A stretch of DNA of 64,000 nt, from NCBI RefSeq assembly GCF_000181515.1, contig NZ_ABCG01000002.1, positions 310,001 to 374,000 of the forward strand, written 5' to 3'. Below the pieces are notes generated by a model. The model saw nothing but the letters and a program-made list of their open reading frames with translations, ran no database searches and was not told the DNA's origin. Below, in pieces: positions 21,411-41,643 of the stretch (positions within the stretch are counted from its first letter, which is position 1; each line of letters opens with the position of its first letter). The position numbers and the translations under genes are program-made. Source of the stretch: Erythrobacter sp. SD-21 (GTDB taxonomy: Bacteria; Pseudomonadota; Alphaproteobacteria; Sphingomonadales; Sphingomonadaceae).

Positions 21411-21432
21411 TTTCACCGGAGTTTCACCGGAG
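21411..21432 (+). repeat. Two tandem 11-bp units near attL
   Basis: TTTCACCGGAG occurs twice in direct tandem at 21411-21421 and 21422-21432. The same unit recurs at 48487-48497 beside attR in the same orientation, followed by a related unit. Tandem short repeats inside both element ends fit arm-type recombinase or accessory-factor sites. The second copy overlaps the end of the metallopeptidase gene. Confidence 0.5.
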
Positions 21433-22158
21433 AACCGGTGCGTCGAAAAGCTCCGGCGCGAGCTTCTCCAGCGCCCTTTTACGCTTTCTCCAGTCCGGCA
21501 TCTTCTCAGTGAGGTGAGCAATGAAAGCCGCTCCATGATCGCCATATCCAACGTGCGCGAGTTCGTGAGCGACAACGTAATCGATCAGCGGTGGCGAGAC
21601 CTGCACGAGTGATCGGTTGAGAATCAATGTATGGGTCGCCGAGATATAAGATCCCCAGCGCATCTTGATTGGCCTGATGAGAAGGTTGGGCTTTCGCTCT
21701 ACCTCCTTGCGAAAACTGGGCAGACATCTTTCGACCGCGGCAGGCAAGTGGTGTCGAGCCTCCTTCATATACCATCTAACCAAGCGATTGCGGATGCGAC
21801 CGGCTTCGTTCGGTTGGATGGCACCCACGATTATGCGCGACCCTTCGCGCACCACCCCCACCCTCTCTGGATCCACCCGCAGCCGATACTGCTGGCCGAG
21901 ATGAAGGAATGTTTCACCTGGCTTGAACTGCCTCGCAGTTGCCTCAATACTCCTAGTCGAGAACTCGGCCTGCTTATCGAGGATCCAGCCAGCTTTTTTT
22001 CGAACGCGACTTTCGATGTCGGCGAAATCCGCCTTCTCGGGTGCGCTGACCACAACCGCTTGATCGGGCGAAACCGAGATTCCCATGGTCTTTCGCGGCG
22101 AGCGACGCAGCTGGAAACGTATCAGTTCCCCACCGATCTCGATTACGTGCTGTTCCAT
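21424..22158 (-). CDS. YgjP-like zinc metallopeptidase (M48/DUF45 group)
   Basis: A 244-aa protein of the YgjP/WLM-like metallopeptidase group. The zinc motif is HELAH in 'VVAHELAHVGYGDHGAAF', preceded by the family's 'MRWGSYISATHTLILNRSL' region (Trp-Gly-Ser). These proteins are often encoded next to type I restriction genes; their role is unclear and may involve DNA-repair-linked proteolysis. It is the last gene of the hsd operon here, 3 bp after hsdR. Its 3' end carries one of the repeated 11-bp units. Confidence 0.88.
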   Translation of the reverse strand: MEQHVIEIGGELIRFQLRRSPRKTMGISVSPDQAVVVSAPEKADFADIESRVRKKAGWILDKQAEFSTRSIEATARQFKPGETFLHLGQQYRLRVDPERVGVVREGSRIIVGAIQPNEAGRIRNRLVRWYMKEARHHLPAAVERCLPSFRKEVERKPNLLIRPIKMRWGSYISATHTLILNRSLVQVSPPLIDYVVAHELAHVGYGDHGAAFIAHLTEKMPDWRKRKRALEKLAPELFDAPVLR

Positions 22159-22161
22159 TGA

Positions 22162-25100
22162 TTAGCGAGCCGCCTGGCGTTTCGCGATCGCGATGGCGGC
22201 GTCCATCAGGCTGTCCATCGCTTCGACAGAAAAACCGTAAAGGCCTCGCGCGCCCTTGATGTGGTCGAACAGGTAGTCGTCCATATCCTGCCGCATTGCG
22301 TTTTCGGCATTCGGATCGGTCGTCCAGCCGACACGTTTGTGGCGCTCAATGATCGACGCAAATTCGACAGCGATCTCCTCGGAAATCTCGGTAGACTGCT
22401 CGCCCGCCAATTCTCCGACAGCATCCCGTGCTTGGCCGTAGATCGCACTGCCCAACGGATCTCCGCGGAGCGATGCGGGCGTTTCCTCCGTTTTCGCCCG
22501 CGATCCCTCTACTACCTGCTCCCGGATTTCGTGGGCCTTCGCCAGATAATCCTTCTCGCTCAGGCGACCCTCGCGAAACCCGTCTATGATGTCCTGCACC
22601 ATCTTGGCGAAGCGCCGATACATCGCCGGGTCCTCATCCATTCGTTCGGTGATCGAACGCTGAGTGGCCGACGTAATGGCGTCGGCAACGCTGGCCGCCG
22701 TCCCCGTCTGCTCCTCGACAGTGCGCTTGAAATTCTCTTCGTCGAAAATGTCGACCGGCGGCACAATAGCCACCAGTTCCGTCGCATCGATGTGCTTGTC
22801 TAGCAGCGCACGGATCGACGCCTGATACCGCTTGTAGTCGTAATCCTCCTCGGCATCACCGTAACGCAGGCGAACCGCGCGCCGTAACGCCTCGAAGCGC
22901 TTCAGGTCCTGCTTGTAGTTCGCAATCACCCGGGGCTCCGTATTCTCTACGAATTGATCGGAGCCGAAGGCCGTCTGGAGGGTGCGAGCAAAATCGGACA
23001 GTCGATCATAGAAGCGCTTGCGGCGAAGCTCGTCGCGCAGGTGAAGCGCATAGGCTTCCGGATCGTAGTGATTGCCCACACCCTTGAAGAGGTCAAGCAA
23101 GGCCGCGTGCTTGTCCGGCAAGGTGTCGACCTCTTCACGGATCGACACCAGAGCTTGCGCAACGTCGCCCTCGTCATAGCCTTCGAAGGCGCTGTAAGCC
23201 GTCAGTGCCTGGTCAAGATCTTCGAGGATGCCGACGTAATCGACGATACGGCCGTGCTCCTTGTCATAGAGCGCGTCGCCATCCTCGTCCTTCTCCTCGC
23301 TGGAGAACAGCCGATTAACCCGCGCAATCGCCTGCAGCAGCTTATGGTCCCGCAAGTTCTTGGCGATGTAGAGCGTCTGGTTGCGGGGCGCATCGAAGCC
23401 GGTGAGCAGTTTGTCGACGACGATCAGAACATCCACCCCCACGCCATTCTTGAACGCGCGGATCGTGTCTTCCTCGTATTTGGCCAAGGGCTGCTTCGCC
23501 TCGACCTTCTTGATGAAGGACTGGACGATATCATCGTCATCGTCGCCGACGTCCTCGTGGCCGTCACGGTCGTCGCTCTTCGAGATGATGACGGCGCTTT
23601 CGACGATGCCAATCTCCTCGAGCATCTGGTGCAACAGCACGGCCTCGCGCTTGAATGGGGCGACGAGCTGCGCCTTGTAGGGCGTGCCCAACATCGTCCG
23701 CTCGAAATCCTCGCTTACGTCCTGGGCGACTTCGTTCAGCCACGGCTCCACGCCCTGGACGACCTGCGCGCGGGCGATGCGCTTCTTCAGGTCGGCCTTC
23801 TGACCATCGGTCAGATTACGCGTCTTGCGCTCGAACCACTTGTCTAGGTTCGCCTGCTGCGCCTCCATCTCAACGTGACGCCCTTCGTAAAGCAGCGGCA
23901 CCACCGCCTTGTCCGCCACGGCCTGGTCGATCTTGTAATCGTGGATCAGCCCGCCGAAGCGGTCGAAGGTGCTTTTCTCACGCTTCAGAAGCGGGGTGCC
24001 GGTGAAGCCGATATAAGCCGCACCGGGCAGCACCTTCCGCATTTGGCGATGCAGGCTGTCGATGTCCTTCACCGTCTGGCTGCGGTGGCTTTCGTCGACC
24101 AGCACGAAGATATCGGTGTCGGGATCGGTGAAACTGCCTGCCGATTTCAGCCCGGCCTTGAACTTGTGAATCAGCGTCGTGATAACGGGGCGCTTGTCTT
24201 TCAGCATGCGGATCAAATCGCTACCTCGCGTCGCCTGCTGCGGTAGCTTGCCGGCATTACGGAAAGTTTGGGTAAGCTGACGGTCGAGATCGACACGGTC
24301 TGTCACCAGCACGAAGCGCGCCTTTCCGAACTCGCGTTCGATCGCGCCGGCCAGCATCACCATCGTCAGCGATTTGCCCGAACCCTGCGTGTGCCAGACC
24401 ACGCCGCCCTTGCGGTGACCATCATCGTCGTGCTGGCGGACGCGTTCGAGCGAACGGCGCACGCCGAAATACTGCTGGTATCGCGCGACCTTCTTCACGC
24501 CGTTGTCGAACAGCGTGTAGCCGCGGACGATATCGAGAAGGCGGTCGGGGCGGCACAGGCTGATGAGCAAGCGGTCGAGCTGGTTGGGCAGACGTCCGCC
24601 CGCGCCCGGATCCATCAGGCCGTCATGCGTCCGGCGGTGGCGGTCGAAATCGATCCAGATCTTCGAGGCTTCGTCCGGGTCGAGCCCAGCATTGACGATC
24701 CGCTCGACCTGGCTGTCGGCGATCTCTTCCTCGCGCCAGAGCGACCAGAACTTAGACGGCGTGCCACTGGTGGCGTAGCGCGGATCGCTGTCGTTGGCGG
24801 CGATCAGCATTTGCGAGACGGTGAAGAGGCGCGGGATCTCGTCCGGCGCCTGATTACGAAGCTGCTGGCTGATGCCTTGCTGAGTCTCGATCGCGGAGCA
24901 TTTCACCTCGATCACCACCAGTGGGATGCCGTTGACGAAGAGCACGATATCGGGTCGCCGCGTATCCTCGCGCCGCTCTCGGCGGACGGGAAACTCGGCG
25001 GTCATGTGGAACAGGTTGTTGGCGGGAGTGTCCCAGTCGATGAACTTGAGCTGCCGCCCGCGCTTCTCGCCATCGACTTCCACGTCGACGCTCTCGCCCA

Positions 25101-25419
25101 GCTTGAGCAGGTTCGTCACCCGCTCGTTTGCTGGCATCAGACCGATGGCGCGATCGCTGGCCGCTTCCTTCAGCTTTTCGATCAGTTCGCGCGCTGCATC
25201 GTCGGGAACGGCATGGGTCCTGCCGCGCTGGCGGATGCGATTGATCGCCACCATGCGCTCGGCAAGCACGTCCTCGAGGATGACCTGCTCCAGCCGACCA
25301 CGCCTTTGCGCTTCTCCTTCAGCCCGGCTGACGTAGCGCCAGCCCAGCCGCGCCAGGGTCATGACGGCGGGCAGTTGCACGCCGCCTTCTTCGCTGGTGG
25401 AGAAGCGGGGGGAGGTCAT
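22162..25419 (-). CDS. hsdR: Type I restriction enzyme, R subunit
   Basis: A 1085-aa HsdR. The N-terminal PD-(D/E)XK nuclease shows 'PDIVLFVNGIPLVVIEVKCS' (Asp near 156, Glu-x-Lys near 170). The translocase follows, with Walker A 'GSGKSLTMV' near 345, a DEAD-like 'VDESHRSQ' near 440 and later superfamily-2 motifs including 'LLTGFDAP'. It cleaves foreign DNA at a distance after ATP-driven translocation, in complex with HsdM and HsdS. I prefer ATG 25419 because it shares ATGA with the upstream DUF3800 gene; a GTG at 25428 is possible. Confidence 0.96.
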   Translation of the reverse strand: MTSPRFSTSEEGGVQLPAVMTLARLGWRYVSRAEGEAQRRGRLEQVILEDVLAERMVAINRIRQRGRTHAVPDDAARELIEKLKEAASDRAIGLMPANERVTNLLKLGESVDVEVDGEKRGRQLKFIDWDTPANNLFHMTAEFPVRRERREDTRRPDIVLFVNGIPLVVIEVKCSAIETQQGISQQLRNQAPDEIPRLFTVSQMLIAANDSDPRYATSGTPSKFWSLWREEEIADSQVERIVNAGLDPDEASKIWIDFDRHRRTHDGLMDPGAGGRLPNQLDRLLISLCRPDRLLDIVRGYTLFDNGVKKVARYQQYFGVRRSLERVRQHDDDGHRKGGVVWHTQGSGKSLTMVMLAGAIEREFGKARFVLVTDRVDLDRQLTQTFRNAGKLPQQATRGSDLIRMLKDKRPVITTLIHKFKAGLKSAGSFTDPDTDIFVLVDESHRSQTVKDIDSLHRQMRKVLPGAAYIGFTGTPLLKREKSTFDRFGGLIHDYKIDQAVADKAVVPLLYEGRHVEMEAQQANLDKWFERKTRNLTDGQKADLKKRIARAQVVQGVEPWLNEVAQDVSEDFERTMLGTPYKAQLVAPFKREAVLLHQMLEEIGIVESAVIISKSDDRDGHEDVGDDDDDIVQSFIKKVEAKQPLAKYEEDTIRAFKNGVGVDVLIVVDKLLTGFDAPRNQTLYIAKNLRDHKLLQAIARVNRLFSSEEKDEDGDALYDKEHGRIVDYVGILEDLDQALTAYSAFEGYDEGDVAQALVSIREEVDTLPDKHAALLDLFKGVGNHYDPEAYALHLRDELRRKRFYDRLSDFARTLQTAFGSDQFVENTEPRVIANYKQDLKRFEALRRAVRLRYGDAEEDYDYKRYQASIRALLDKHIDATELVAIVPPVDIFDEENFKRTVEEQTGTAASVADAITSATQRSITERMDEDPAMYRRFAKMVQDIIDGFREGRLSEKDYLAKAHEIREQVVEGSRAKTEETPASLRGDPLGSAIYGQARDAVGELAGEQSTEISEEIAVEFASIIERHKRVGWTTDPNAENAMRQDMDDYLFDHIKGARGLYGFSVEAMDSLMDAAIAIAKRQAAR

Positions 25420-26255
25420 AGCGCCCACTCGGGATGGCGGGCGCCTTTGTAGAAATCGACACAGGGCGCGTCTGGCGTCTGCCCGATTTTCACGCGGTGC
25501 GGCTCCAGAATGTCGATTAGGCTCTGATAATAGGCCTGCTCACCTTGATAAGCTTCGGCTTGCGACCTCAGTTCGAGGTGACGCCGATAGACATAGCAAA
25601 TTGCGTCAGCGACCTGCACGAGAGATGAGTGATCCGACTTGATCGCGAAGGCCGTGTTTATGATCTGGTCAAAGCGGTCCTTTTTTGAGCGGGGCTGCCA
25701 GATGCGCTTCTTCCGCTTCGTCACACGGCATTGATAAAGACCGTCATACCAACCGTCGCACGCATAAAGACCGTCCGAAAGGTTCGCCATTTCCGCTTTG
25801 TTGTCGTCCATTATGACAACAGTCAGCCCTTTGCTGTTGGCCACTCCTTGCATCTTCTTCTGGACGAGGGCGCTTGTGAACATCCCGCCGGCGATCCAGT
25901 AGCTGTTGCCGAAAGGGTGTCCGTGACCCGCGGCTCTAGCCGCATCGAAGGCCTCGAAGGAGAGGGCTACACCGAAGATCTTGCCACCATTTGCGACCGC
26001 GAGCGCACAGACCTCGGTAAGGAAATCCTTTCGTTCTTGCGCATCAATCTGATTCCAAGCACCCTTTCCATTAATAAAGCGGCTAGTCTTCAAGTCTGCC
26101 CGGTTACCGGGGTGTTTGGCGAAAAGAGCTTCGAGTCTCGCATCGAAGTCTGCGGTCTTCTTGCGCAGTTTATATGCATCGACCATCAAACCGCACATGA
26201 CGAATACGTCACCTTGATCACGTGCTCCGCTCTCATCGACATAGACAAACTTCAT
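25416..26255 (-). CDS. DUF3800 family protein
   Basis: A 279-aa protein starting 'MKFVYVDESGARDQG', the signature opening of DUF3800, with an Asp/Glu pair on the first strand as in RNase H-like folds. A later 'VIMDDNKAE' offers further acidic residues. DUF3800 proteins are widespread in mobile elements and defence islands and are suspected nucleases, but no activity is established. It overlaps hsdR and hsdS by 4 bp each, so it is embedded in the restriction operon and probably co-translated. Confidence 0.85.
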   Translation of the reverse strand: MKFVYVDESGARDQGDVFVMCGLMVDAYKLRKKTADFDARLEALFAKHPGNRADLKTSRFINGKGAWNQIDAQERKDFLTEVCALAVANGGKIFGVALSFEAFDAARAAGHGHPFGNSYWIAGGMFTSALVQKKMQGVANSKGLTVVIMDDNKAEMANLSDGLYACDGWYDGLYQCRVTKRKKRIWQPRSKKDRFDQIINTAFAIKSDHSSLVQVADAICYVYRRHLELRSQAEAYQGEQAYYQSLIDILEPHRVKIGQTPDAPCVDFYKGARHPEWAL

Positions 26256-27418
26256 CGGTCGAGTGCCTCCCCTTTTTCCTCGCGGCGAGAAATCGAAGCT
26301 CGTTCATCTCCGGTGTCCGGAAGAAGTCGCTGCATCAACGAACGCTTTTTTATCTGAAGAAGTTCGCCCCTCCGGATCTCCGCGAGCCAATCGCTGTGAG
26401 CTGCATCTAAAGGCAATAAGAGGTTAGCTTGTTCGTCCTTGCTCGGGAGCGGCAGGGGCGCTCCTTGGACAACCTCCCAATCTGCTCGCGGCATTCGCGA
26501 GCCTGTTGGGCGATTAGCCTCTGCCGCGAACTCGTGTGTCTGGATTAGATGGAATAAGAAACGCTGCTCACAAACATCGCGGTCGGCGCGCAACACCCAA
26601 AATTCGGTCGATGCGAGGCCGGGCCTATCGGCGTAATGGAACTTGTTGAGATACGGTCGCAGCTTACAGTATAGGATATCCGCAGTCTGGAAAGTTGCCC
26701 GGGCGCCTTGCAATTCCTTTGTCGGGGTGGCGCCAATCAGGCGGCCGCTTTGACCCTCCACGTTATCGAGTTCGATTGATGTTGGGGCAGAATCTACGCT
26801 GGCCTTTTGACTGCTCCTCGCAACAAAATCTCCGAGCTCAGTCCTCGCTCCCGCGTGGTTCGAAGATAGTCGCTGGATGAGCGCGCGATATCTCCGGCCC
26901 TTTGCGCCTGCGAGGCGATGCGAAAGCAGGATCAGGCGTTCAATTTGGTCGAGCGCATCGGCAGTCTGTATTTGATCTAAAAACTCAGGCCACGAGACAG
27001 GGATCTCGAGAAACTCAGCCGGATACAAACGGAGGCGGTCTTCGGTTAGGCCATAAGAAAAAGCCCATAGCATGTAGAGACCGCGGTCTGACTTGAACCA
27101 GTGTTTGGCGAAACGCGGATCAACAGTATTTTTCGGACGCATAACGCCATACGCTGGGCTAACATTCGCCGCCTCATCTGCGAGACCCAAAGCGCCCTGC
27201 CACATCCGCATCATATTGTAGGCAATATCGCCTGGCTCAACGAGCAAATGCTCTTCGTCCTTCAGCGCACTATCCGTTTTGCGGTCGAGACTATCGCGGC
27301 GAACCAGACCGTCGTGCATGGTGACCGACATCAGCGGCAAGCCTGCGCGGCCCTTGCGCTTACTGTGCGTGAAATAGTGCGAGAGCTTCCGAGGTGCATC
27401 AGCCATTGCTGCCCCCAT
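26252..27418 (-). CDS. hsdS: Type I restriction-modification specificity subunit
   Basis: A 388-aa specificity protein with two target-recognition halves. Each half ends in a helical spacer, around 'LDQIQTADALDQIERLILLS' and 'EIRRGELLQIKKRSLMQRLL'. Motifs such as 'VEPGDIAYNMMRMWQGALG' and 'ADILYCKLRPYLNKFHY' are typical of TRDs. It sets the bipartite DNA site for methylation and restriction. The nominal start is ATG 27418; ATG 27406 has a better-spaced GGGGG and may be the real one. It overlaps the 3' end of rhuM and shares ATGA with the DUF3800 gene. Confidence 0.93.
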   Translation of the reverse strand: MGAAMADAPRKLSHYFTHSKRKGRAGLPLMSVTMHDGLVRRDSLDRKTDSALKDEEHLLVEPGDIAYNMMRMWQGALGLADEAANVSPAYGVMRPKNTVDPRFAKHWFKSDRGLYMLWAFSYGLTEDRLRLYPAEFLEIPVSWPEFLDQIQTADALDQIERLILLSHRLAGAKGRRYRALIQRLSSNHAGARTELGDFVARSSQKASVDSAPTSIELDNVEGQSGRLIGATPTKELQGARATFQTADILYCKLRPYLNKFHYADRPGLASTEFWVLRADRDVCEQRFLFHLIQTHEFAAEANRPTGSRMPRADWEVVQGAPLPLPSKDEQANLLLPLDAAHSDWLAEIRRGELLQIKKRSLMQRLLPDTGDERASISRREEKGEALDR

Positions 27419-28442
27419 CTTTCCGCTTCGCGCCGATCCGCTTCACCGTCTGCGTCGCTTCGAGGAAATGCCGTTCGACAGCGCTCGGCGCTTCGATGGC
27501 GCGGGTGTGCCATTTGTCGTATTCAACGTCGGCCTTCTTCTTGGCGAGCTTTGCCGAGATACGACCCGCATTCGTCAGGATCTCGCGATCCGACAGCGAC
27601 AGGAACTGGTCGAGCTTGGCGATCCAGTCCTTCATATACATCGGCTTGCGGTTCTCTGCCTGCAGTTCAGCAAATTCGAGATAGGCGGTGACGATGCGAT
27701 TGAGCGCCTTGATCTCGTCTTCCTCGAGGTAGTTCTTCGCCACTCGCGCGTCGTCCTTGCGCGGCAGGTTGCCCCGGGTTTCGCCCGCCCAGCTGGTGAG
27801 GCCCATATGATCCTTCTGCGCATCGGCGCGGGCGTGGATAACCTCTGCCGCGGTATGGCCGTGAGCCGCCCAGTGCATCTTGTTCTGCACCGTCTGGAAG
27901 AAGGTCTGGCTGGTTTCCGCCTTCGGGTCGTAATCCACACTGAGCGCGTAGATATCGAGCACCTTGCGGTAGAACACCTTCTCCGACGAACGGATATCGC
28001 GAATGCGGGCGAGCAGTTCGTCGAAATAGTCGGCCTCGGGGTCCTTCAATCGCTCGTCATCCATGACGAAGCCCTTGACCAGATACTCCGACAGAGCATC
28101 CGCCGCCCAGCGCCGGAACTGCGCGCCGCGAGGGCTGCGCACCCGGAAACCAACGCCAAGGATGATGGGGAGGCTGTAGTGCGCAATTGAGCGCTTTACC
28201 TCACGTCCGCCCTCGGTTCGAACTTGTAAGTAATCGTTACAAGTTGCCTCCTCGCCGTATTCCTCGTCCTCGTAAATTGCCCGGATATGCTGGGTCACCG
28301 CCTGAGGCGTCACCTGATAGAGGTCCGCAATCTCCGCCTGGCTGAGCCAGACGTTGCCGTCTCGCGCCTGAAGCCGGATGACCGTCACACCGTCCTCAGT
28401 CTGATACTGGATCAGCTCTCCATTGCTTTTACGGTCTGCCAT
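27399..28442 (-). CDS. RhuM family protein
   Basis: A 347-aa protein of the RhuM family. Its N-terminal part has a winged-helix-like DNA-binding segment ('WLSQAEIADLYQVTPQAVTQHI'), followed by the conserved 'HYSLPIILGVGFRVRSPRG' and 'QFRRWA' and a C-terminal helical domain. RhuM was named from a Salmonella pathogenicity island; the molecular role is unknown, but it commonly sits inside type I restriction operons. Here it lies between hsdM (1-bp overlap) and hsdS, so it may regulate or modulate the system. Confidence 0.9.
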   Translation of the reverse strand: MADRKSNGELIQYQTEDGVTVIRLQARDGNVWLSQAEIADLYQVTPQAVTQHIRAIYEDEEYGEEATCNDYLQVRTEGGREVKRSIAHYSLPIILGVGFRVRSPRGAQFRRWAADALSEYLVKGFVMDDERLKDPEADYFDELLARIRDIRSSEKVFYRKVLDIYALSVDYDPKAETSQTFFQTVQNKMHWAAHGHTAAEVIHARADAQKDHMGLTSWAGETRGNLPRKDDARVAKNYLEEDEIKALNRIVTAYLEFAELQAENRKPMYMKDWIAKLDQFLSLSDREILTNAGRISAKLAKKKADVEYDKWHTRAIEAPSAVERHFLEATQTVKRIGAKRKDGGSNG

Positions 28443-29995
28443 CAGAGGACGCCCAGCTCCTTGAGGTAGCCGTTCATCTTCTGGCGCGTTTCGGCCAGTT
28501 CCTTCTCCAGCTCCTCGATCTCGGCCTGGACCGCCGCGATGTCGATTTCCTCCTCGGGCTCGAAGGTGTCGACGTAGCGCGGAATGTTGAGGTTGTAGCC
28601 GTTCTCGGCGATCTGCTCGCGCGTGATGACACTGGCGTAGCGTTCGACATCCTCACGCGCGCGCCACGTATCGACGATCTTGTTCAGGTGATCCTTCGAC
28701 AGCTCGTTTTGCTTCTTGCCCGGCACGAATTCGCGGCTGGCATCGATGAAGAGGACGTCATCGGCATCCTCGCGCGCGCCACCCTTTTCGCGGGCGCGGT
28801 CGAAGATTACCATGCAGACCGGAATGCCGGTCGAAGGAAAGAGTTGCGCGGGGAGGCCAACCACACCGTCGAGCAGGTTCTCCTCAATCAGCGCCTGCCT
28901 GATCTTGCCCTCGGCTCCGCTTCGGAAGAGCACACCATGCGGCGCGATGACAGCTACACGGCCTTCACGCGGCTTGGCGCTCTCGACCATGTGGCTGATG
29001 AACGCATAGTCCCCGCGGGACTTCGGCGGCACGCCGCGATGATAGCGGTTGAAGCGATCGTCGCCTGCAACCTCATGCCCCCATTTCTTGAGCGAGAAGG
29101 GCGGGTTGGCAATGATCCTGTCGAACCGCATCAGCGCGTCGCCATTGACGAACTTCGGATTGGTGAGCGTGTCGCCCCATTCGATCCGCGCATTGTCGAG
29201 CCCGTGGAGGAACATGTTCATCCGGGCGAGCGCCTGGGTCTGGTTCGTGGCCTCCTGTCCAAAAACCTGCGCATTTGCTTGGCTTGCATGTTCCTTGCCC
29301 TCGATACCGGCGACATATTCGGCCGCGCGGACCAACAAAGTGGATGAACCACAGGCTGGATCGAGGATCTTGTTGCCAGGTTGAGGATCGGCCAACCGCA
29401 CCAGTAATTCCGAAACCTTGCGCGGCGTGAAGAACTCACCCGCCTTCTTGCCGGCGTCAGATGCGAAGCGGGAAATCAGGTAGATGTATGTCTCGCCAAT
29501 TACATCCTCCGCATTATCCTCACCACCAAATCGGGAGGGCGAGAAATCGAGCGCAGGACGCGCGAAGTTGTCGAACAGATCCTTGATCCGTCGATTGCGA
29601 TCCGCCGTTTCGCCAAGATTGGTTCGGCTGTTGTAGTCCGTTTCGCTTAGCACGCCTTCCAGTTTCGCGATGTTAGCTTGCTCGATTGCCTCTAGCGCAA
29701 CATTAACCTGCTCGCCGATGTTGTCGGCGTTACGGTTCGGATAGAGATCGTGGAAACTCGAGCCTTCTGGGATCTGGAACCGGAAACGGGAAAGACGCCG
29801 TGCAACACGCTCACTGTCCCCCGCATACTGGTCTTCGGCAGCTTTCCTTTCGTCCGCCCAAAGGTCGCTTAGAAACTTCCAAAACAGAAAAACAAGGATG
29901 TAATCCTTATAAGCTGATGGATCGATCGTGCCGCGAAACGTATCGCAGGCATCCCACGCGGCTTTATTGACATCCGATTGCTTGATTGCGGGCAC
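28442..29995 (-). CDS. hsdM: Type I DNA methyltransferase, M subunit
   Basis: A 517-aa HsdM with an N-terminal helical domain ('AWDACDTFRGTIDPSAYKDY') and an N6-adenine methyltransferase domain. The SAM motif 'ILDPACGSSTLLVRAAEYV' lies near residue 212 and catalytic 'NPPF' near 296. A C-terminal coiled coil ends the protein, matching HsdS-binding helices. It modifies the host's own sites and is the core of the restriction complex. It is followed by rhuM and preceded by the half-size S-like gene with a 2-bp gap. Confidence 0.97.
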   Translation of the reverse strand: MPAIKQSDVNKAAWDACDTFRGTIDPSAYKDYILVFLFWKFLSDLWADERKAAEDQYAGDSERVARRLSRFRFQIPEGSSFHDLYPNRNADNIGEQVNVALEAIEQANIAKLEGVLSETDYNSRTNLGETADRNRRIKDLFDNFARPALDFSPSRFGGEDNAEDVIGETYIYLISRFASDAGKKAGEFFTPRKVSELLVRLADPQPGNKILDPACGSSTLLVRAAEYVAGIEGKEHASQANAQVFGQEATNQTQALARMNMFLHGLDNARIEWGDTLTNPKFVNGDALMRFDRIIANPPFSLKKWGHEVAGDDRFNRYHRGVPPKSRGDYAFISHMVESAKPREGRVAVIAPHGVLFRSGAEGKIRQALIEENLLDGVVGLPAQLFPSTGIPVCMVIFDRAREKGGAREDADDVLFIDASREFVPGKKQNELSKDHLNKIVDTWRAREDVERYASVITREQIAENGYNLNIPRYVDTFEPEEEIDIAAVQAEIEELEKELAETRQKMNGYLKELGVL

Positions 29996-29997
29996 TA

Positions 29998-30591
29998 CTA
30001 GTCCTCTCGTCCTGGGCCACTCAGGAATTGCGCGGCGGCTTGGGTCATCACTTCTTCGAATACGGTTTCTCTGCGAACGGCAATGCTTCGCTCGAGCTTT
30101 GCGATCTTCCGGCCAGCTACACCGGCTCGCACGAACATTTCAGCCGACTGCGGCGGAAATAGAGGCACCTCCAATCTTCGGAGTGCTGGTAGCGGAAGCC
30201 TGAATGCGTGACTTCCGACGCGATGGACTGCTAACTTGGACTGCGTGCTTTCGAGATTGAACCACAGCGACAGCGCGAGCGCTCCAATCTGGTCTGGGTG
30301 ACGAAGCCTGATTACAGCCACGTCGAGCGAGGCATAAACAGGCAGGCCTTGAAACTTCGCTGCGGTAAAGACTGAGGTCCCATTCCGCTTACCCCTCAGC
30401 GAGATCAGGATGTCCGAATCTTCCAAGCGCGCATCCTCGCCAGCCGGAGCAACCGCTGCCAAATCTGTGCTGATAACCACCTGAGCGCCGACGTCGCCCA
30501 CCATGACAGCCAGAGCGCCACAGCCAGACCGGTCGACTGAGATGCCACTGTATACTGAGGCTATAGACTCAAGTGGGTAATTTTTACTCAT
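29998..30591 (-). CDS. Half-size HsdS-like protein, single target-recognition domain
   Basis: A 197-aa protein that reads as one half of an HsdS. 'LEDSDILISLRGKRNGTSVF' and 'GLPVYASLDVAVIRL' match TRD strands, and the C-terminus ('FPPQSAEMFVRAGVAGRKIA' onwards) is the usual spacer helix. It is first in the hsd operon, immediately before hsdM, while a full hsdS lies after rhuM. It may dimerise to give an alternative specificity, modulate the main S subunit, or be a duplicated relic. The start codon ATG 30591 is followed by a normal TRD N-terminus ('YPLESIASVYSGIS'). Confidence 0.7.
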   Translation of the reverse strand: MSKNYPLESIASVYSGISVDRSGCGALAVMVGDVGAQVVISTDLAAVAPAGEDARLEDSDILISLRGKRNGTSVFTAAKFQGLPVYASLDVAVIRLRHPDQIGALALSLWFNLESTQSKLAVHRVGSHAFRLPLPALRRLEVPLFPPQSAEMFVRAGVAGRKIAKLERSIAVRRETVFEEVMTQAAAQFLSGPGRED

Positions 30592-30733
30592 GGATCGCCG
30601 ATCTAACGACCAAAGCGGTTAAGTCAATGGATTTGCGATCCAACCTAAAATTCGGGTCATTCGGCCCCGCTTGGCGTAGAAAGGAGTCGATGAGTGAGGC
30701 GGTCCAACGCCGGCAGCTGTAGCTTTTGGGGCG

Positions 30734-31387
30734 TCAGGGAGCGCCCTCCAGAATGCTCACGTTTTCTGCATGGTCTGCATAGGGGATCAATATCTCTGCC
30801 TCGCTTCGGTCGTTGAGAAAGGCGAATGCCTCATTCTCATCTACGCTGCGCGACACGATCACGGGTTCACCTTTGGCTCCCCAGCTGCGAGGCCACTCGT
30901 TCGCATAAAAGGAGGCTACCTCACGGTCGAGCGTCCAACTCACGCCAGATGCGACTTCGTCGACCGTGCCCGTCCCGCCACGATAAACGGTCAGCGGGAA
31001 AGCCATTGCCTTCAATTCCCGCGCCTCAGCGTCCGACATGAGAGAGACGCCCCATTCCTCGATAAACTCGTCCATGCTGAACGCCCAGGCGTCTCGCAGT
31101 CTCGCTGCAGCGCTTGTCACATATGAACCCACTCGGGCTCCGCCGGTGTAGGGCTCGCTATCCCAAGCATGGCGCAGGGCTCCGCTCACCATGGCGTGAT
31201 TAAGTTCTTCCCCATCCAGCCAGTTGTCGAGAATCCTGGCGATCAGATCGACCCGTGCGCCATCGTCGAGGCGAAGGAAGATGGAAGCACCTTTCTCTCG
31301 ATCATCTGCTCGGGCTTTGACACCCTGGCGGCCGACCTTGAAGAAATCCTCTGCGTGCTGCAGTTCATATTCAACAGTTTCGTTCAA
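30734..31387 (-). CDS. Candidate R-S-E ADP-ribosyltransferase, orphan
   Basis: About 217 aa. I recognise no named family. The C-terminal 90 residues have the order expected of an R-S-E ADP-ribosyltransferase: Arg in 'LTVYRGG', a Ser-Trp-Thr in 'ASGVSWTLDREVASFYA', then 'RSEAEILIP' with Glu-x-Glu. The N-terminal half is helical. If real, it would transfer ADP-ribose from NAD to a protein, nucleic acid or small molecule. I take TTG 31387, which has GGGAG spaced 7 nt upstream; a GTG at 31486 is in frame but less supported. It lies just upstream of the restriction operon on the same strand, so it may act as a phage-defence toxin. Confidence 0.45.
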   Translation of the reverse strand: MNETVEYELQHAEDFFKVGRQGVKARADDREKGASIFLRLDDGARVDLIARILDNWLDGEELNHAMVSGALRHAWDSEPYTGGARVGSYVTSAAARLRDAWAFSMDEFIEEWGVSLMSDAEARELKAMAFPLTVYRGGTGTVDEVASGVSWTLDREVASFYANEWPRSWGAKGEPVIVSRSVDENEAFAFLNDRSEAEILIPYADHAENVSILEGAP

Positions 31388-31945
31388 GATATTGCTCCCT
31401 CTGATTTCAGCAGGGTGGCCGCAAGATATTGAGATTTTGTTGAATTTCGGACTCTGCCAATCGCGATTTCGCTTGGTGGTGGCCACTCAAGCGCACAATC
31501 GACAAAGCCTATCGAACGAGTTCTATCATGAACGTCGCGGGGATTTGGCATGGCCCTTCCGACCCGCGTCAGCAGGGTGTCCCACCTGCAATGAGTGCAG
31601 CGTCGTCTCCGTGTCCGGAGGGTGGCTTACTTGCTATAAACGAAGTTCACCCCCCATGTCCGGAGGGTGGCTTACTTGCTATAAAGTATAAGGCATTTGA
31701 GCAGACCAAGCGCCTCACTCCAGTTCGAGGCCTGACAAGGGTTCCTACCCTAAATTTATGGGCGCAATAGGGCAGGAAGGTCCTCCTTCGTCGAACCTGC
31801 CTGCTTTGCTTCTTAACATTCAGAAGTATCTGCGCGCGATCTGCGCTAAGATCAATCTGTGTTCACCCGAACATTTCCGCATACGCAAGTGAAATCGGCC
31901 ATTTTCCCGGTTTCATCATAATCGTCGCCACCCGATATTAACGGA
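31388..31945. other. Noncoding region upstream of the relaxase gene
   Basis: About 560 bp between the ART-like gene (minus strand) and the relaxase (plus strand). It holds a pair of 29-bp direct repeats, a short inverted repeat (GCAGG 31572-31576 with CCTGC 31585-31589) and AT-rich DNA before the relaxase start. No protein-coding frame is convincing. Position and content suit a transfer origin plus divergent promoters. Confidence 0.5.
31612..31685 (-). repeat. 29-bp direct repeat pair, candidate oriT nic region
   Basis: Two identical 29-bp copies lie at 31612-31640 and 31657-31685, 45 bp apart start to start. On the minus strand each reads AGTAAGCCACCCTCCGG near its end, which resembles the nic core TAAGTGCGCCCT of RSF1010-type (MOBQ) transfer origins with one gap. 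The relaxase encoded 260 bp away is of the MobA/MobL type that acts on such sites. The duplication of a nic-like core is unusual. This is inference from motif likeness and position. Confidence 0.4.
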
Positions 31946-34900
31946 ATGACCGATAAGAAAATCACCACGCGGCAAGCTCATGCGCAACTGCGGCAAGTAG
32001 AGCGTCTCGTCTCCGCCCTGATGCGTGGCCCCAACCTCGACGCGGCCATGGTCGTCGCCATCCGCAAATCCGGGCCTAGTGCTGAACTTTTGGCCCGCAT
32101 GAATTTGCAGAATGCGGTAATCCAGGCCCCGAACCTTTTGCCCGACCCATTGAATAAAGATTTACACATCACCGGCAAAGTCGGAGGGCTGGCGAAGCGC
32201 CGCCGCGCCGCAGTTGGAGAATGGGGCTCGGGGCCGAACCACCATCAGCGCACGAATCTCATGTATCCCGTTTCGCGTCCATCCCGACCGCGCGGACCTG
32301 ATGGCGGCCGCTCATTCCATATGCGCGAAGAAATCATGCACACGGTCAAGCAGGGTGCTCGCTCCGTCAAACAGGCGCGACAAGATTATACGTTGGACGC
32401 GAGCAAGGTCCCCATCTCCGAAGCAATGCTCGGCGGAAGCTATTTGGAACGCGGCCTATATCTGTTTCGGGATACCGTATCCGTCGACCATAATGGCTAC
32501 CGCCTCGCTCTGACCTCGCTCGGCAATGGAAACGATGCGGTGATCGATGGCTGGCAACTCATCGAGAGCACCGAAATTCGGCGTGTCGGCAAGCCAATCG
32601 AGCGACACCTCACCATCGATTTATCCAAATCGGAAGATCTCGGTTTCTGGCAGGCGATTAAGAAACAGCCGAAAGCACCCGACAGCCTAATCGAATTTCT
32701 CGATTCGGGTGACGACAGTGTGAGATTCACAGGTGATGAGGCGATGTTGGTCGAGTGCTTCCTTCGTAAGAACGGCTGGCACAATCGAAATTCGAAGAAA
32801 CGTAAAGACGTGATATTTCATCTCGGCCGACAGGTCATCACGCAGCGCCGGCTCGTATTCGAACTTCCTACCGGCATGCCGTTAGCCGCTATCGAGCGCA
32901 TCACTCGCAGCCTCGCGAAAGAGTTTTCGGACCGCGATCTTCCTTTTGTCCTGGTGGTTCACAAACCAGACGAGACCAATGACGATCGGAATTGGCACGT
33001 CCATTTGGATTATCATCACAGGCCGATGAGGCGCTTCGATCCCGCGAAATATCAGCTTGACCCAGTCCCGCCCCCAAAGAAGGTCACGGCCCCGGACAAT
33101 AAGGAGATCAACAAAGGTGAGAAGGCTTATGCAAAATATTGCTTGGCGCTAAAAGCCCTAGCCAACCCGGATCCGTCATGGACCGGGAAATGGGACAGTG
33201 AGATTGAATACGAGTATCGAACGCCCAGCGGCCGGAAGAAGAAGGCCTTCCCGTTCATCCAGGATACTCATCCGGTATTCCGCGAGGACGGCAAGTGGCT
33301 CAAGACGCTTCGCAGCAAATACGCCGACATCATAAACGCCGAACTTGTCCGAGAAAATCTTCCAGATCGCTTTGATCCTCGCAGCTTCGAAGATCGCAAC
33401 ATCGACAAGATCCCGGATGCACATCTCAACACTTCGAAAACACGCTGCGAAAGGACCGGTCGCCCTACACTCGAGGGGGCAATGAATGAGCAGTGCCAAT
33501 GGAATTACGAGGTAAGTGAACTTCGTAAGCGCCATCCGGGCGGGGATCGACCAAATGGCGATCCTCTCGCGGTCGCTGGTTACATATCCGCATATCTCGA
33601 ACTGCTTAGGATGCGGCTTCGCTCGCGCAGCGAATACGTGCTGAAGTTTGCCGACCAAGAAACGGAGTGGGATAGTCGGCCCAGTCCCACGCCCTCATCG
33701 GTGCGGCGAAATAAACGAGGCGACTACAGACCAGAAGCACTTGCCCCAGACGCTAGCGCAATGCTCAATCGGATTGACGACATATGGCCGCACATCGCGC
33801 AAGGGCTGGAGAACCTCGCTGGACGCATTCGATCGGTGGTCCCGCAACACCAAGCACGAGAGGCTACAACTTCTAGTTCAATGACCCCCACCGCGGCGGC
33901 TAAACATCCGTGCCAGGCTGGGAATGAAGATGCCGACCAGGCGAACGCTCACGCGCCTTTAGTGGCGTCAACCAAGCTTATTTCAGATCCTCCGCTCAAG
34001 CAGGAGGTGATAGCGCCTTCTAAACCGCCACAATCTTTCGATGTGATGCTTCGGAAAATGCGCGAAAGCCGCGTCGCTTTCAGCATCAGCCAAACATACG
34101 AACAGGACAAGAAGGTGCTGATCGCTTCGGTGGCTGACCGTGATGCATCAGCCATTGGCCTGCCTCGCAGAATTATCGCTCGCCTACCTCAGGAACGTGC
34201 CGACCTCATGTCGCTGCTCGACGAGCGGGCAAATATCGATGCGCCTTCAACAAAAACGCAGCGTGCGGCTGTGGAACCTGATGGAAGCGCTGTCTCGCCC
34301 CGCGTGACAGACATTGCGGAGGCTTCGCCTAAGGTTGCTGATCAAGATCGGGATCGCGAGGGACAGCCTCGGAAGCACACGCTCCCAGACACCACTAAGC
34401 AGCAGAGTGATACTTCGCCGTCGACAAGGCCGCCTATCGAAAAGCTTGAGAAGCAGCCAGCCGCACCATTCGTTTTCGACGCAAAATTCCCTGACCGGAA
34501 AAGCAGCGTTAAGGCAAGTGTGGCGAATTCAAGTCCTGCCCATAATCGCGCCGAGCTCGGTGGTGCAAAGCCCAGGTCCACGCCTTCCGCTAATCCACGG
34601 ATGCGTCAGACACAGACGCCAATTGCGCAAGCTTCCGCCCCTAAGCCGAAGCCCAGCAAATCAATCGTGAGCCAGAATCCTACGGCGCTCACAGCGGCAG
34701 ATCGCAATCAGATGGAGACCAAACCGTTTTATCTGATCAAGCAACCCGCCGGCTCGTTCCTTGTTTGCTCCAACAAGGCCCCTTCTTCGCTAGTTTCCGC
34801 AGCATCGGACTCGCGCTACGCCATCAATTTCGAAGAGTGGCTTCGACGCCAGCAGTCCGAGCAACAGGAAATCGCGGAGCTATTCACGCGGTCGAGATAC

Positions 34901-35125
34901 TCCGACACATCGGAAACCGATCGGGCGGTCGCGAGCGGCAAGGCAGACCCTCGTCTGACCGAACTCTGGAAGCGCTGGGAGAATACCCCGCTTCTCAACA
35001 ATGCCGTCTCGCTAGGGATGACGATGCGACGCGAAGCCGAACGCGAGGAGGTCAAATCCGCGAAACGCGAGCGCGAATTACAGCGCCAGGCGGTAATTGC
35101 TCAGCAATTCGGGCGTAGCATTTGA
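31946..35125 (+). CDS. MobA/MobL-type relaxase
   Basis: A 1059-aa protein. The best-recognised segment is about residues 305-355: 'RRLVFELPTGMPLAAIERIT' followed by a metal-binding 'NWHVHLDYHHRP' (His-x-His near 350), as in MobA/MobL (MOBQ) relaxases. These nick oriT, attach covalently by a Tyr and lead the strand through a conjugation channel. I cannot assign the catalytic Tyr by eye. The long C-terminal part (from about 620) is hydrophilic and low complexity until a helical end. The N-terminal 300 residues precede the relaxase motifs and may be a separate domain. No mobB or mobC partner was recognised. Confidence 0.7.
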   Translation: MTDKKITTRQAHAQLRQVERLVSALMRGPNLDAAMVVAIRKSGPSAELLARMNLQNAVIQAPNLLPDPLNKDLHITGKVGGLAKRRRAAVGEWGSGPNHHQRTNLMYPVSRPSRPRGPDGGRSFHMREEIMHTVKQGARSVKQARQDYTLDASKVPISEAMLGGSYLERGLYLFRDTVSVDHNGYRLALTSLGNGNDAVIDGWQLIESTEIRRVGKPIERHLTIDLSKSEDLGFWQAIKKQPKAPDSLIEFLDSGDDSVRFTGDEAMLVECFLRKNGWHNRNSKKRKDVIFHLGRQVITQRRLVFELPTGMPLAAIERITRSLAKEFSDRDLPFVLVVHKPDETNDDRNWHVHLDYHHRPMRRFDPAKYQLDPVPPPKKVTAPDNKEINKGEKAYAKYCLALKALANPDPSWTGKWDSEIEYEYRTPSGRKKKAFPFIQDTHPVFREDGKWLKTLRSKYADIINAELVRENLPDRFDPRSFEDRNIDKIPDAHLNTSKTRCERTGRPTLEGAMNEQCQWNYEVSELRKRHPGGDRPNGDPLAVAGYISAYLELLRMRLRSRSEYVLKFADQETEWDSRPSPTPSSVRRNKRGDYRPEALAPDASAMLNRIDDIWPHIAQGLENLAGRIRSVVPQHQAREATTSSSMTPTAAAKHPCQAGNEDADQANAHAPLVASTKLISDPPLKQEVIAPSKPPQSFDVMLRKMRESRVAFSISQTYEQDKKVLIASVADRDASAIGLPRRIIARLPQERADLMSLLDERANIDAPSTKTQRAAVEPDGSAVSPRVTDIAEASPKVADQDRDREGQPRKHTLPDTTKQQSDTSPSTRPPIEKLEKQPAAPFVFDAKFPDRKSSVKASVANSSPAHNRAELGGAKPRSTPSANPRMRQTQTPIAQASAPKPKPSKSIVSQNPTALTAADRNQMETKPFYLIKQPAGSFLVCSNKAPSSLVSAASDSRYAINFEEWLRRQQSEQQEIAELFTRSRYSDTSETDRAVASGKADPRLTELWKRWENTPLLNNAVSLGMTMRREAEREEVKSAKRERELQRQAVIAQQFGRSI

Positions 35126-40255: not shown

Positions 40256-40576
40256 GTGGAGCAGTCTTTGGGTGAGATCGCCCGGAAGTGGTCGAGGAAC
40301 AGCGAGAAGGGAAAAGGGCTTCGGCTCGATTCCGTCGCGCTCGACCGGCTCAACGAGATTGGCGTCGGTGAACTCATTCAGACCGAGGCTGCAAAACAAC
40401 AGAGGTTAGAATGCGCAAAACGGAGAAGCCCCTCTACGAGCGGGGAGACTACAAACTCGTCTACGATCGGAAGCGCGACGGCACCCTCCGATCCCCCTAT
40501 CTCCAGATCGTCTGGTATGACGCGACTGCAGGACGTCAACGAAGCAAGTCGACGGGCACGGCGGATGCTGAAGTAG
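40256..40576 (+). CDS. Possible small protein upstream of and overlapping the recombinase
   Basis: A 106-codon frame from GTG 40256, with GGAG well placed upstream. Its first half reads like a real protein ('IARKWSRNSEKGKGLRLDSV'), but the last half overlaps the recombinase gene by 166 bp out of frame and looks less protein-like. It may be a short leader gene that ends within the recombinase, or only its first half may be meaningful. Confidence 0.3.
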   Translation: MEQSLGEIARKWSRNSEKGKGLRLDSVALDRLNEIGVGELIQTEAAKQQRLECAKRRSPSTSGETTNSSTIGSATAPSDPPISRSSGMTRLQDVNEASRRARRMLK

Positions 40577-41643
40577 CTGAGCTGCAGCTGGACGCGCTCT
40601 ACCTCGCAAACGAGAAAGGACGGGCCGTCTGTTACGCCTGTGGCCAACCCATCGCAGCCGACGACAGCTATCTGCTCACCGAAGCCATCGAAGCATACGT
40701 GGCTGCCAGACAGAACAGGCCGAGTATCAGCTCAATACGGCCACGGCTCGCTCATGTGCTGGACTTCCTTGCGCAGAACGATGCCGTAGCCACTCTATGT
40801 AACGAGGTGGACGAAGAATGGATCGAGGAATTCCGCGAATGGAATATTTTGATCCCTGTCGAGGAGGGCAATGGTTCGACCCGGGAACGTGCTCCCGGCA
40901 CAGTCGAAGCAAGTGTCAGGCAACTAGCAGCGGCGATCAACTACGCAAAGAAGAAGGAACACATTCGAAAGGGTGCCCAGTTCAAGCCAAAGAAGCATAC
41001 CGAGGTAAGCCATACTCCGACCTACCGTGCGTCGGTATCCGAGCTCGCTGATATGTTTCGCTATTGCACCGAGCCGCCCAGAAAAGATGGAGAAAGTGAC
41101 AAGGTCTATGCGAAGCGCGTCGCGGACCGTCGCAACCTCCTGCGCTTTCTGCAAATCAGCGTAGCCACGTGGGCGCGCCCGGATGCAGCGCATGACGTAT
41201 CGACCAGCAGAAAGCGTGGTCAGTGGCAGTCAAAACGCCGGTTGCTCAACCTCAACCCCAAGGGCCGCACTCAGACCCGTAAGTATCGTCCGACAGTTCC
41301 GATTGCCTCTCAGGTGGCACCGTTGTTGGACTCCACCCACGGTTTCTTCGTAACCGTTGCCTCCGTCCGGAAGGCGTTCGAAGCAATGCAAGACGCGCTC
41401 GGGCTTCCCGGCGATCGTGAAGCAGGGTTGAAACTCATTCGCCGGTCGATGGCACAGCTGGGCCGCGATCGCCTTGGCCGCACCGCGTGGATCGAGGGCA
41501 AATATATGTTGGGCCATCATCGTCCGGACCCGTCGGACCTCTACGGAATCGATACACCCGGCGATTTCCCACTCGCTCTGAAGGTCACCGAAGAGATCAT
41601 TGACGAGATTATTGCGTTCGCTCCCAAAGCTTTCAGAGCTTGA
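40411..41643 (+). CDS. Tyrosine recombinase / site-specific integrase
   Basis: A 410-aa phage-type integrase. A catalytic Arg lies in 'ATWARPDAAHD' (near 254), box II in 'LKLIRRSMAQLGRDR' (near 343), and the C-terminal His and Tyr in 'GHHRPDPSDLYGI' (near 367 and 377). The N-terminal 'YDRKRDGTLRSPYLQIVWYD' is the arm-binding style of such enzymes. It is the only recombinase in the element and so presumably acts on the tRNA-Arg att sites. It is 26 bp upstream of the small DUF7673-like gene. Confidence 0.93.
   Translation: MRKTEKPLYERGDYKLVYDRKRDGTLRSPYLQIVWYDATAGRQRSKSTGTADAEVAELQLDALYLANEKGRAVCYACGQPIAADDSYLLTEAIEAYVAARQNRPSISSIRPRLAHVLDFLAQNDAVATLCNEVDEEWIEEFREWNILIPVEEGNGSTRERAPGTVEASVRQLAAAINYAKKKEHIRKGAQFKPKKHTEVSHTPTYRASVSELADMFRYCTEPPRKDGESDKVYAKRVADRRNLLRFLQISVATWARPDAAHDVSTSRKRGQWQSKRRLLNLNPKGRTQTRKYRPTVPIASQVAPLLDSTHGFFVTVASVRKAFEAMQDALGLPGDREAGLKLIRRSMAQLGRDRLGRTAWIEGKYMLGHHRPDPSDLYGIDTPGDFPLALKVTEEIIDEIIAFAPKAFRA

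Follow-up and report, generated by a model that had tools for sequence, protein, structure and literature searches.

Our analysis of a 64,000-nucleotide stretch of the genome of Erythrobacter sp. SD-21 (hereafter the window) suggests that the half-size HsdS-like protein (half-S) encoded at the head of its Type I RM operon may, as a dimer and probably together with HsdM, bind its own promoter and autoregulate the operon, an interpretation towards which we lean on the basis of sequence comparisons and leader analysis. Autoregulation is the most likely of the roles considered here and an enzyme role of the S. xylosus type comes next, and both can hold together.

Operon organization and close relatives

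The operon lies on the reverse strand of the window and comprises the following genes.

29998..30591, (-): half-S, HsdS-like protein with a single TRD, 197 aa (ORF with ATG at 30591; PADLOC Specificity_I; AlphaFold2 model)
28442..29995, (-): hsdM, 517 aa, GTG start (N6_Mtase, E 2e-101; NPPF intact)
27399..28442, (-): rhuM, cargo of the hsdM-hsdS slot (PF13310, E 3e-112)
26252..27418, (-): full hsdS with two TRDs (PADLOC match clear, E 1e-30; Pfam match to PF01420 marginal, E 9e-4, under the cut-off)
25416..26255, (-): DUF3800 gene, cargo of the hsdS-hsdR slot (PF12686, E 2e-14)
22162..25428, (-): hsdR, 1088 aa (HSDR_N, E 1e-37)
21424..22158, (-): ygjP/SprT-like metallopeptidase gene, final gene of the operon (PF01863, E 7e-46)

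The gene order half-S, hsdM, rhuM, hsdS, DUF3800, hsdR and ygjP, as read in the initial annotation, was borne out by the ORFs and domain matches, and with hsdM, hsdS and hsdR side by side the operon is a Type I RM system. Only 2 nt separate the half-S stop codon from the hsdM start, and the downstream junctions overlap save for a 3-nt gap between hsdR and ygjP. The cargo of both slots varies: RhuM, GIY-YIG or PDDEXK proteins are encoded between hsdM and hsdS (window, L037-L077 and further loci), and DUF3800, Shedu, HAD, TIGR04141, DUF6119, kinase, Abi or Fic proteins between hsdS and hsdR. The operon adjoins genes for a MobA/MobL relaxase and an integrase-like protein with a phage integrase SAM-like domain (31946-35125, 40411-41643), so that it could be part of a mobile element.

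Two orthologous loci were found in Citromicrobium sp. JLT1363 (L001) and Qipengyuania aestuarii (L002). Among the three loci HsdM is 96-97%, HsdR 98% and half-S 72-82% identical, whereas the full HsdS proteins share only 49%, 28% and 23% identity, the 49% pair because its front part is retained while the rear part differs. Close relatives retain half-S together with hsdM and hsdR but have exchanged the full hsdS.

Half-S protein and its distribution

No Pfam domain matches half-S up to E 10; the protein is matched weakly (E 2e-4) by the PADLOC Specificity_I model PDLC03199, which with its 208 positions is itself half-size and matches 25 of the 27 members of the half-S alignment, the window's protein included. 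The AlphaFold2 model, based on 19 aligned sequences (mean pLDDT 85.6), predicts one TRD at approximately residues 1-140 and then one long helix of the dimerisation type (147-191). The closest structural match of this model (Foldseek, VIA-align) is Esub1, a half-size S-like chain (8vsr, E 6.5e-12, Z 18.6), further matches being the S subunit of PacII (Z 16.9), HsdS of M. jannaschii (1yf2, Z 15.8) and other HsdS proteins (Z 11.8-13.6), and the half-S profile matches 5ybb at E 2e-23. The predicted TRD fold with its long dimerisation helix places half-S in the HsdS/TRD family; with 197 aa, one TRD and one helix it is not a complete HsdS, which has two TRDs. The anatomy put forward in the initial annotation, a single-TRD protein adjoining hsdM with a full hsdS in the same operon, thus holds, and a fold unlike a TRD, which had been named as a finding that would speak against it, is not what the model predicts. 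Half-S is not a likeness of its cognate full HsdS, the mean rank of the cognate being 13.3 of 27 (expected 14), nor is it a strongly conserved protein, given a median pairwise identity of 0.25 as compared to 0.62 for HsdM and 0.23 for full HsdS.

Shortened or broken copies at L041, L063 and L074 could suggest that half-S is a functionless, decaying duplicate of hsdS. This is highly improbable, as the protein is under purifying selection (dN/dS 0.16-0.19 among the window, L001 and L002) and intact copies are known from Alpha-, Beta- and Gammaproteobacteria.

Half-S is a regular and common part at the head of operons of this hsdM clade. Intact half-S genes were present at nine of the 14 genome hsdM loci, which are the best 14 HsdM matches in the genome search with the window included, while one locus had a shortened copy (G475) and four had none. 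Likewise, 15 of the 21 plasmid hsdM loci (21 of the first 26 matches listed) carried an intact half-S, two a copy that is broken or cut short (L063, L074), and four lacked it. At L066 another ORF separates half-S from hsdM, and on the Zymomonas plasmid L074 half-S is reduced to a 60-aa rear piece, with hsdM, hsdS and hsdR annotated as whole. No half-S was found upstream of hsdM at 15 distinct loci with HsdM proteins 35-42% identical, although at L028 a possible short S-like ORF lies right at the edge of the locus. Other MTase genes can be preceded by half-S as well (L122-L125, L127, L128). With a profile of 27 half-S sequences and up to 8 candidates scored per genome, at least 19 half-size hits and one truncated hit were obtained among 398 genomes sampled from the phylum and at least nine hits among 385 sampled from the class, the window genome being counted in both. 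In the seed profile the 28 core half-S proteins, 20 of them in the seed, score 161-255 bits and divergent half-S down to 68 bits, and all full HsdS proteins reach at most 98 bits in total and at most 71 bits per domain. The Proteus half-S had no blastn match in 5,426 E. coli genomes, in 550 of which the hsdM part was matched, the L045 half-S had no match in phage records, and the window half-S had no plasmid match. Viral contigs gave 15 matches to the L061 half-S, one to the L047 half-S and none to those of the window and L057.

Several loci had further particular arrangements. In the IMG/VR contigs L138-L149 the half-S-hsdM start lies mostly just downstream of an apparent large serine recombinase gene, as judged by eye. 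L124 (6693-14232) has half-S as the first gene of an operon whose HsdM (736 aa, 24% identical) belongs to another family and which also contains hsdS and an HsdR-like gene. A Deinococcus plasmid (L065, 21-1979) encodes, close to an N-6 MTase gene, a separate S protein of half size (194 aa, 59 bits) whose gene lies upstream of an hsdM operon that lacks half-S.

Palindromes in the half-S leader of the window

The leader upstream of half-S contains two operator-like palindromes and a putative promoter element.

30628..30642, (-): operator-like site 1, TGGATCGCAAATCCA, TGGA-N7-TCCA or TGGAT-N5-ATCCA, conserved in L001 and L002
30622..30627, (-): putative -35 box TTGACT between both sites, TTGAC at -36
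30591..30605, (-): operator-like site 2, TAGATCGGCGATCCA, TAGA-N7-TCCA with one mismatch, conserved in the window, L001 and L002

The two palindromes are spaced 37 bp apart; site 1 abuts TTGACT, and site 2 overlies a possible weak -10 element and extends to the half-S start codon. A promoter scan of the half-S leader detected no sigma-70 consensus. When the leaders of the window, L001 and L002 were aligned, two blocks, TGGATCGCnAATCCATTGAC and TAGATCGnCGATCCATG, were conserved and the remainder had diverged, the long conserved blocks being GGATCGCnAATCC-ATTGAC and AGATCGnCGATCC-ATG. Operator-like sites and half-S are retained at these three loci despite full HsdS proteins that are only 23-49% identical. 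Farther upstream, on the same strand, lies a 250-aa ORF (30734-31486) with no Pfam match at E 0.001.

The sequence TGGATN5ATCCA occurs once in the 2.97-Mb genome, namely in the half-S leader, and since approximately three copies are expected by chance, the signal lies in its place and not in its number. The shorter form TGGAN7TCCA is found at 27 places, site 1 among them. Another TGGA-N7-TCCA within the operon, at 28408-28422 near the hsdM-rhuM junction, may be due to chance. The inner A and T of the window palindrome are 8 bp apart, which corresponds to a Type I methylation interval.

Paired palindromes across half-S leaders

Palindromes were also found in the leaders of other half-S genes, with a sequence that differs between groups. 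In one group, consisting of alphaproteobacterial and viral contigs, CTGTA-N7/8-TACAG is present in all 26 leaders, 13 of which contain two copies within one mismatch. In a second group, comprising Gamma- and Betaproteobacteria, acetic acid bacteria, Bartonella and others, GCAYYA-N7-TRRTGC is present in 19 of 22 leaders and twice in 12 of them. Sites of the CTGTA type number 39 in 4264 bp of leaders versus 1 in 288,664 bp outside, and those of the GCAYYA type 31 in 3608 bp versus 12 in 219,097 bp, while sites of the window type are less rare outside (6 in 492 bp of leaders versus 31 in 96,780 bp). This grouping covers 51 of 71 leaders and leaves 20 in no group, including L038 and L066 with a group-A-like half-S as well as L039, L064 and L071; the groups were chosen after the leaders had been seen, except for nine unseen loci, all of which were placed in group B (6/9 with the site).

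Palindromes were counted independently of these groups in 37 half-S clusters (60% identity) derived from 61 of 62 leaders, with L063 omitted due to its broken half-S. Clustering was applied because the leaders L139-L149 are near-identical, and half-S start codons were picked by a scripted rule. Perfect repeats with 5-bp arms occurred in 18 clusters at spacer 7 and in 20 at spacer 8, as compared to 6.3 and 6.5 in shuffled leaders, none of 200 shuffles reaching the observed values. Other spacers also exceeded the shuffles, namely 5, 6 and 9 (14, 14 and 15 of 37), to which long palindromes contribute by being counted at more than one spacer, and 14 (17 of 37), where the repeats had no sequence or place in common among the leaders. 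Repeats with spacer 7 or 8 were present in 30/37 half-S leaders versus 7/21 distinct half-S-less hsdM leaders (Fisher p 4e-4), whereas spacer 7 alone did not differ significantly from these controls (18/37 versus 5/21, p 0.056). With 6-bp arms the values were 15/37 and 3/21 (p 0.03), and some other spacers differed from the controls as well (spacers 10-14, 30/37 versus 12/21, p 0.05; spacers 2-4 with 6-bp arms, p 0.02). The controls exclude L028, L029 and L065, in which a short HsdS-like ORF was flagged; they are on average farther from the window than the half-S loci (13/21 with less than 48% HsdM identity) and have a higher G+C content (0.49 versus 0.44 in the first set of 27 leaders, duplicates included), and 3 of the 8 controls with HsdM of at least 48% identity have a spacer 7/8 repeat.

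Two copies of one half-site (at most two mismatches) were found in 20 of the 37 clusters, as compared to a mean of 3.2 and a maximum of 6 in 60 shuffles and to none of the 21 distinct half-S-less hsdM leaders (p 9e-6), and in 15 of 31 clusters when 50% identity was used (shuffled mean 3.0). Two-copy counts were elevated from spacers 4/5 through 11/12 with the top at 7/8, and 17 of the 37 clusters lacked two copies. The window leader is negative in the two-copy and the 5-bp-arm spacer 7/8 counts, since it has an arm of 4 bp at N7 and of 5 bp at N5; its site 2 carries a mismatch. In addition, a prediction written before the sequences were fetched was applied to nine held-out loci with half-S proteins related to that of L047; these loci were hand-picked, one from each genus, among the 30 records listed out of 56. 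Two copies were present in six of the nine unseen leaders (shuffled mean 1.05; 0/100), all six with A as the inner base, and the prediction failed in L160, L164 and L166. At least one perfect repeat occurred in seven of the nine (shuffled mean 3.6; 4/200). In L158 the second copy lies within the coding start and has two mismatches, and L159 shares its plasmid with L070. The seven annotated held-out loci have half-S, hsdM and hsdS in that order, the hsdS of L160 being annotated with only 627 bp.

The initial annotation had proposed that half and full forms in one operon suggest a regulated or an expanded specificity. The paired, group-specific palindromes in the half-S leaders lend support to regulation, in a form that had not been foreseen, while expanded specificity gained no positive support, the methylome table for the full S. 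xylosus constructs listing, in the available part of the source, the long-S motif only besides GATC.

Recognition of the palindromes

Regulation of Type I systems is generally described in post-translational terms. To our knowledge, HsdM sets no specificity in known systems. According to a review, neither S nor M alone binds DNA. These two points together lead us to propose a half-S/HsdM complex as the binding species.

A dimer of TRDs is expected to recognise an interrupted palindrome in which the helix determines the spacer length. The known systems considered here and below were taken from open-licence papers (PMC3874165, PMC6158711, PMC3874152, PMC9577141, PMC7394358, PMC12255303, PMC10030836, PMC12429846). 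In these, homodimers of half-size S proteins (NgoAV, EcoR124I delta50, EcoDXXI truncations) have palindromic bipartite A-N7/8-T targets as do the leaders, the published targets being GAA-N7-TTC, TCA-N8-TGA and GCA-N8-TGC. The geometry of the leader palindromes is that of known half-S homodimer targets with their A-N7/8-T shape, the inner base being A in 17 of the 20 two-copy half-sites. Moreover, among 17 leaders with confident half-sites, 13 of them from the CTGTA group, the half-site was shared in all 75 pairs with half-S identity of at least 40% and in none of the 48 pairs below 30% (Mantel r 0.83, p 0.007, for 11 cluster representatives). However, at nine loci the half-site correlated better with HsdM identity (0.97) than with half-S identity (0.58; half-S given HsdM, -0.57). 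Since covariation cannot separate half-S from HsdM, the assignment of half-S as the reader of the site draws on the known role of TRDs.

The mechanism that we propose is that half-S represents a specificity subunit turned into a controller of its own operon. Two half-S molecules would dimerise via the predicted helix, as suggested by the modelled fold and the palindromes, and the dimer would bind two HsdM to give a 2M+2(half-S) complex that recognises the palindrome (TGGA-N7-TCCA in the window). Bound at site 1, which abuts TTGACT, and at site 2, which reaches the start codon, this complex would repress the operon, so that HsdM would serve as corepressor and the level of the defence operon would be set by feedback.

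The covariation data, which cannot tell half-S from HsdM, could also be reconciled with another regulator, encoded by the host or the element, that binds the leader palindromes while half-S is unrelated to them. A precedent is RptR, a proven autorepressor, which shows that a separate small repressor can run such operons. In the E. coli island RRDM it heads, similar to half-S in the window, an hsdM-hsdS-darTG-hsdR-metallopeptidase operon (regulator first, then hsdM, hsdS, cargo, hsdR and metallopeptidase) and has repeats over the promoter. However, RptR is a 79-aa four-helix protein that binds TAGCTA, while half-S is related to HsdS and its leader has bipartite palindromes; half-S differs from it in size and predicted fold, and two or more TAGCTA-type hexamers were found in none of the 62 half-S leaders (140 bp). 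RptR as a replacement at half-S-less loci was also rejected, as two hexamers within 600 bp upstream of hsdM occurred at none of 28 such loci (23 distinct); the RptR parallel therefore rests on the published E. coli island. Furthermore, the palindrome varies by half-S group while its place and N7/8 spacing are kept, no cargo is constant (RhuM is absent in L057, L060 and L062, and DUF3800 in most annotated loci), operator-like sites stay when the full hsdS is swapped, and the 21 half-S-less leaders lack two-copy palindromes, all of which makes another regulator an improbable explanation.

Enzymatic roles and relation to known systems

A more serious alternative, although still unlikely, is that half-S is a needed or helping modification subunit that stabilises HsdM with the full HsdS, has no transcriptional role and is unrelated to the palindromes. 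The closest likeness is the hsdRSMS system of S. xylosus, a member of the Firmicutes, likened here by gene order and not by sequence: it has, as the window does, a short S gene, hsdM and a long S gene in this order, whereas in the window rhuM is inserted and hsdR lies downstream. Its short S (191 aa) has a predicted half-size S structure and is reportedly conserved without a variable region. Proper methylation in E. coli was obtained only with both S genes; without the short S, methylation was impaired although transcript levels under a foreign promoter were similar, and the authors proposed a stabilising role for hsdS_short. An attempt to complement with the short S was unsuccessful owing to the toxicity of its expression from pET3a. 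In addition, half-S tracks HsdM (Mantel 0.83) more closely than full HsdS (0.59). On the other hand, hsdM-hsdS-hsdR sets exist in which half-S is cut short (L074) or absent (L043, L044, L046, L065, L072, L073, L075) and which may not need it, and an enzyme subunit leaves unexplained why leader palindromes differ by half-S group. Unlike the window with its leader sites, an operator is not mentioned for S. xylosus in the part of the account of hsdS_short that was available, and no account of half-S operators was found in the accessible parts of the open-licence literature searched.

A second specificity appears somewhat less likely than a stabilising subunit. Here 2M+2(half-S) would be an enzyme similar to Type 1 1/2 systems that acts beside 2M+S, adds a second palindromic methylation and perhaps restriction, and finds mere targets in the leader sites. 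Engineered and natural precedents are EcoR124I delta50, the EcoDXXI truncations, NgoAV and the CC398 half-S, the window HsdM keeps NPPF, and TGGAN7TCCA would offer 27 targets in the genome. Similar to half-S, the Type 1 1/2 MTases (M.AhdI, M.BsaBI, M.PshAI) combine a single-TRD S with a separate M. However, in these MTases and in the homodimers the half-size protein is described as the only active specificity subunit of a methylating enzyme, whereas in the window a full HsdS is present and the sites lie in the leader of half-S itself. If ten bases are read, the leader would be the only genomic target, a weak argument given the approximately three copies expected by chance. The methylome table for the full S. 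xylosus constructs CM56 and CM5, as far as the source was available, lists the long-S motif and the host GATC and no palindromic second motif, and a second specificity leaves the pairing of sites in the leader unexplained.

Moreover, some half-S partners have altered MTase motifs. Among five pairs of half-S and a short MTase, with motifs assessed by eye, three have an altered catalytic or SAM-binding motif: VPPL in place of NPPF in L122, EPPM with a changed motif I in L127, and DPACRAG as motif I with NPPW kept in L123; the MTases of L125 and L128 appear intact. In these three pairs DNA binding rather than methylation may thus be retained. The HsdM of the window, in which NPPF is intact, has DPACGSS as motif I, which it shares with L001 and L002, while most relatives have DPACGSG and a few DPACGSA. 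In L127 (6998-17715) the half-S and altered MTase genes lie directly ahead of a second hsdM, followed by hsdS, an SMC/AAA-like gene and hsdR, and in L123 (6421-9130) half-S and the MTase with altered motif I precede an AbiEii-type gene.

The C (controller) proteins of Type II RM systems are regulators at RM loci that bind their own promoter, as proposed here for half-S, although they are HTH proteins whereas the half-S model is a TRD. Esub1 (PDB 8vsq, 8vsr) is a half-size S-like chain as is half-S, Prx-bound according to the entry title. Similar to the window, BlihIA of B. licheniformis (Firmicutes) has half and full HsdS genes in one operon, for which its authors speculate on a regulatory hybrid dimer and state, in a paper from 2025, that models for operons with half and full HsdS are lacking.

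Implications

We tentatively suggest, as a plausible extension, that Type I RM operons run by a halved S protein, acting as sequence-specific autorepressor with the MTase as corepressor, are widespread as a class in Proteobacteria and that in them the TRD diversifies with the operators and not with the restriction target. Given the m6A geometry of the site, the promoter may sense its own methylation, which could act as a built-in timer when the operon enters a new host. Should half-S indeed control its operon by promoter binding, this would offer a concrete answer to the puzzle of operons with half and full HsdS, and methylomes would be expected to lack a second motif from the extra short hsdS gene. 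The pairs of half-S and altered MTase that precede a second hsdM in L127 and an AbiEii gene in L123 would then represent the same controller reused. Furthermore, the half-sites of many half-S proteins would be readable from their own leaders, and a natural code from TRD sequence to DNA target would become testable.
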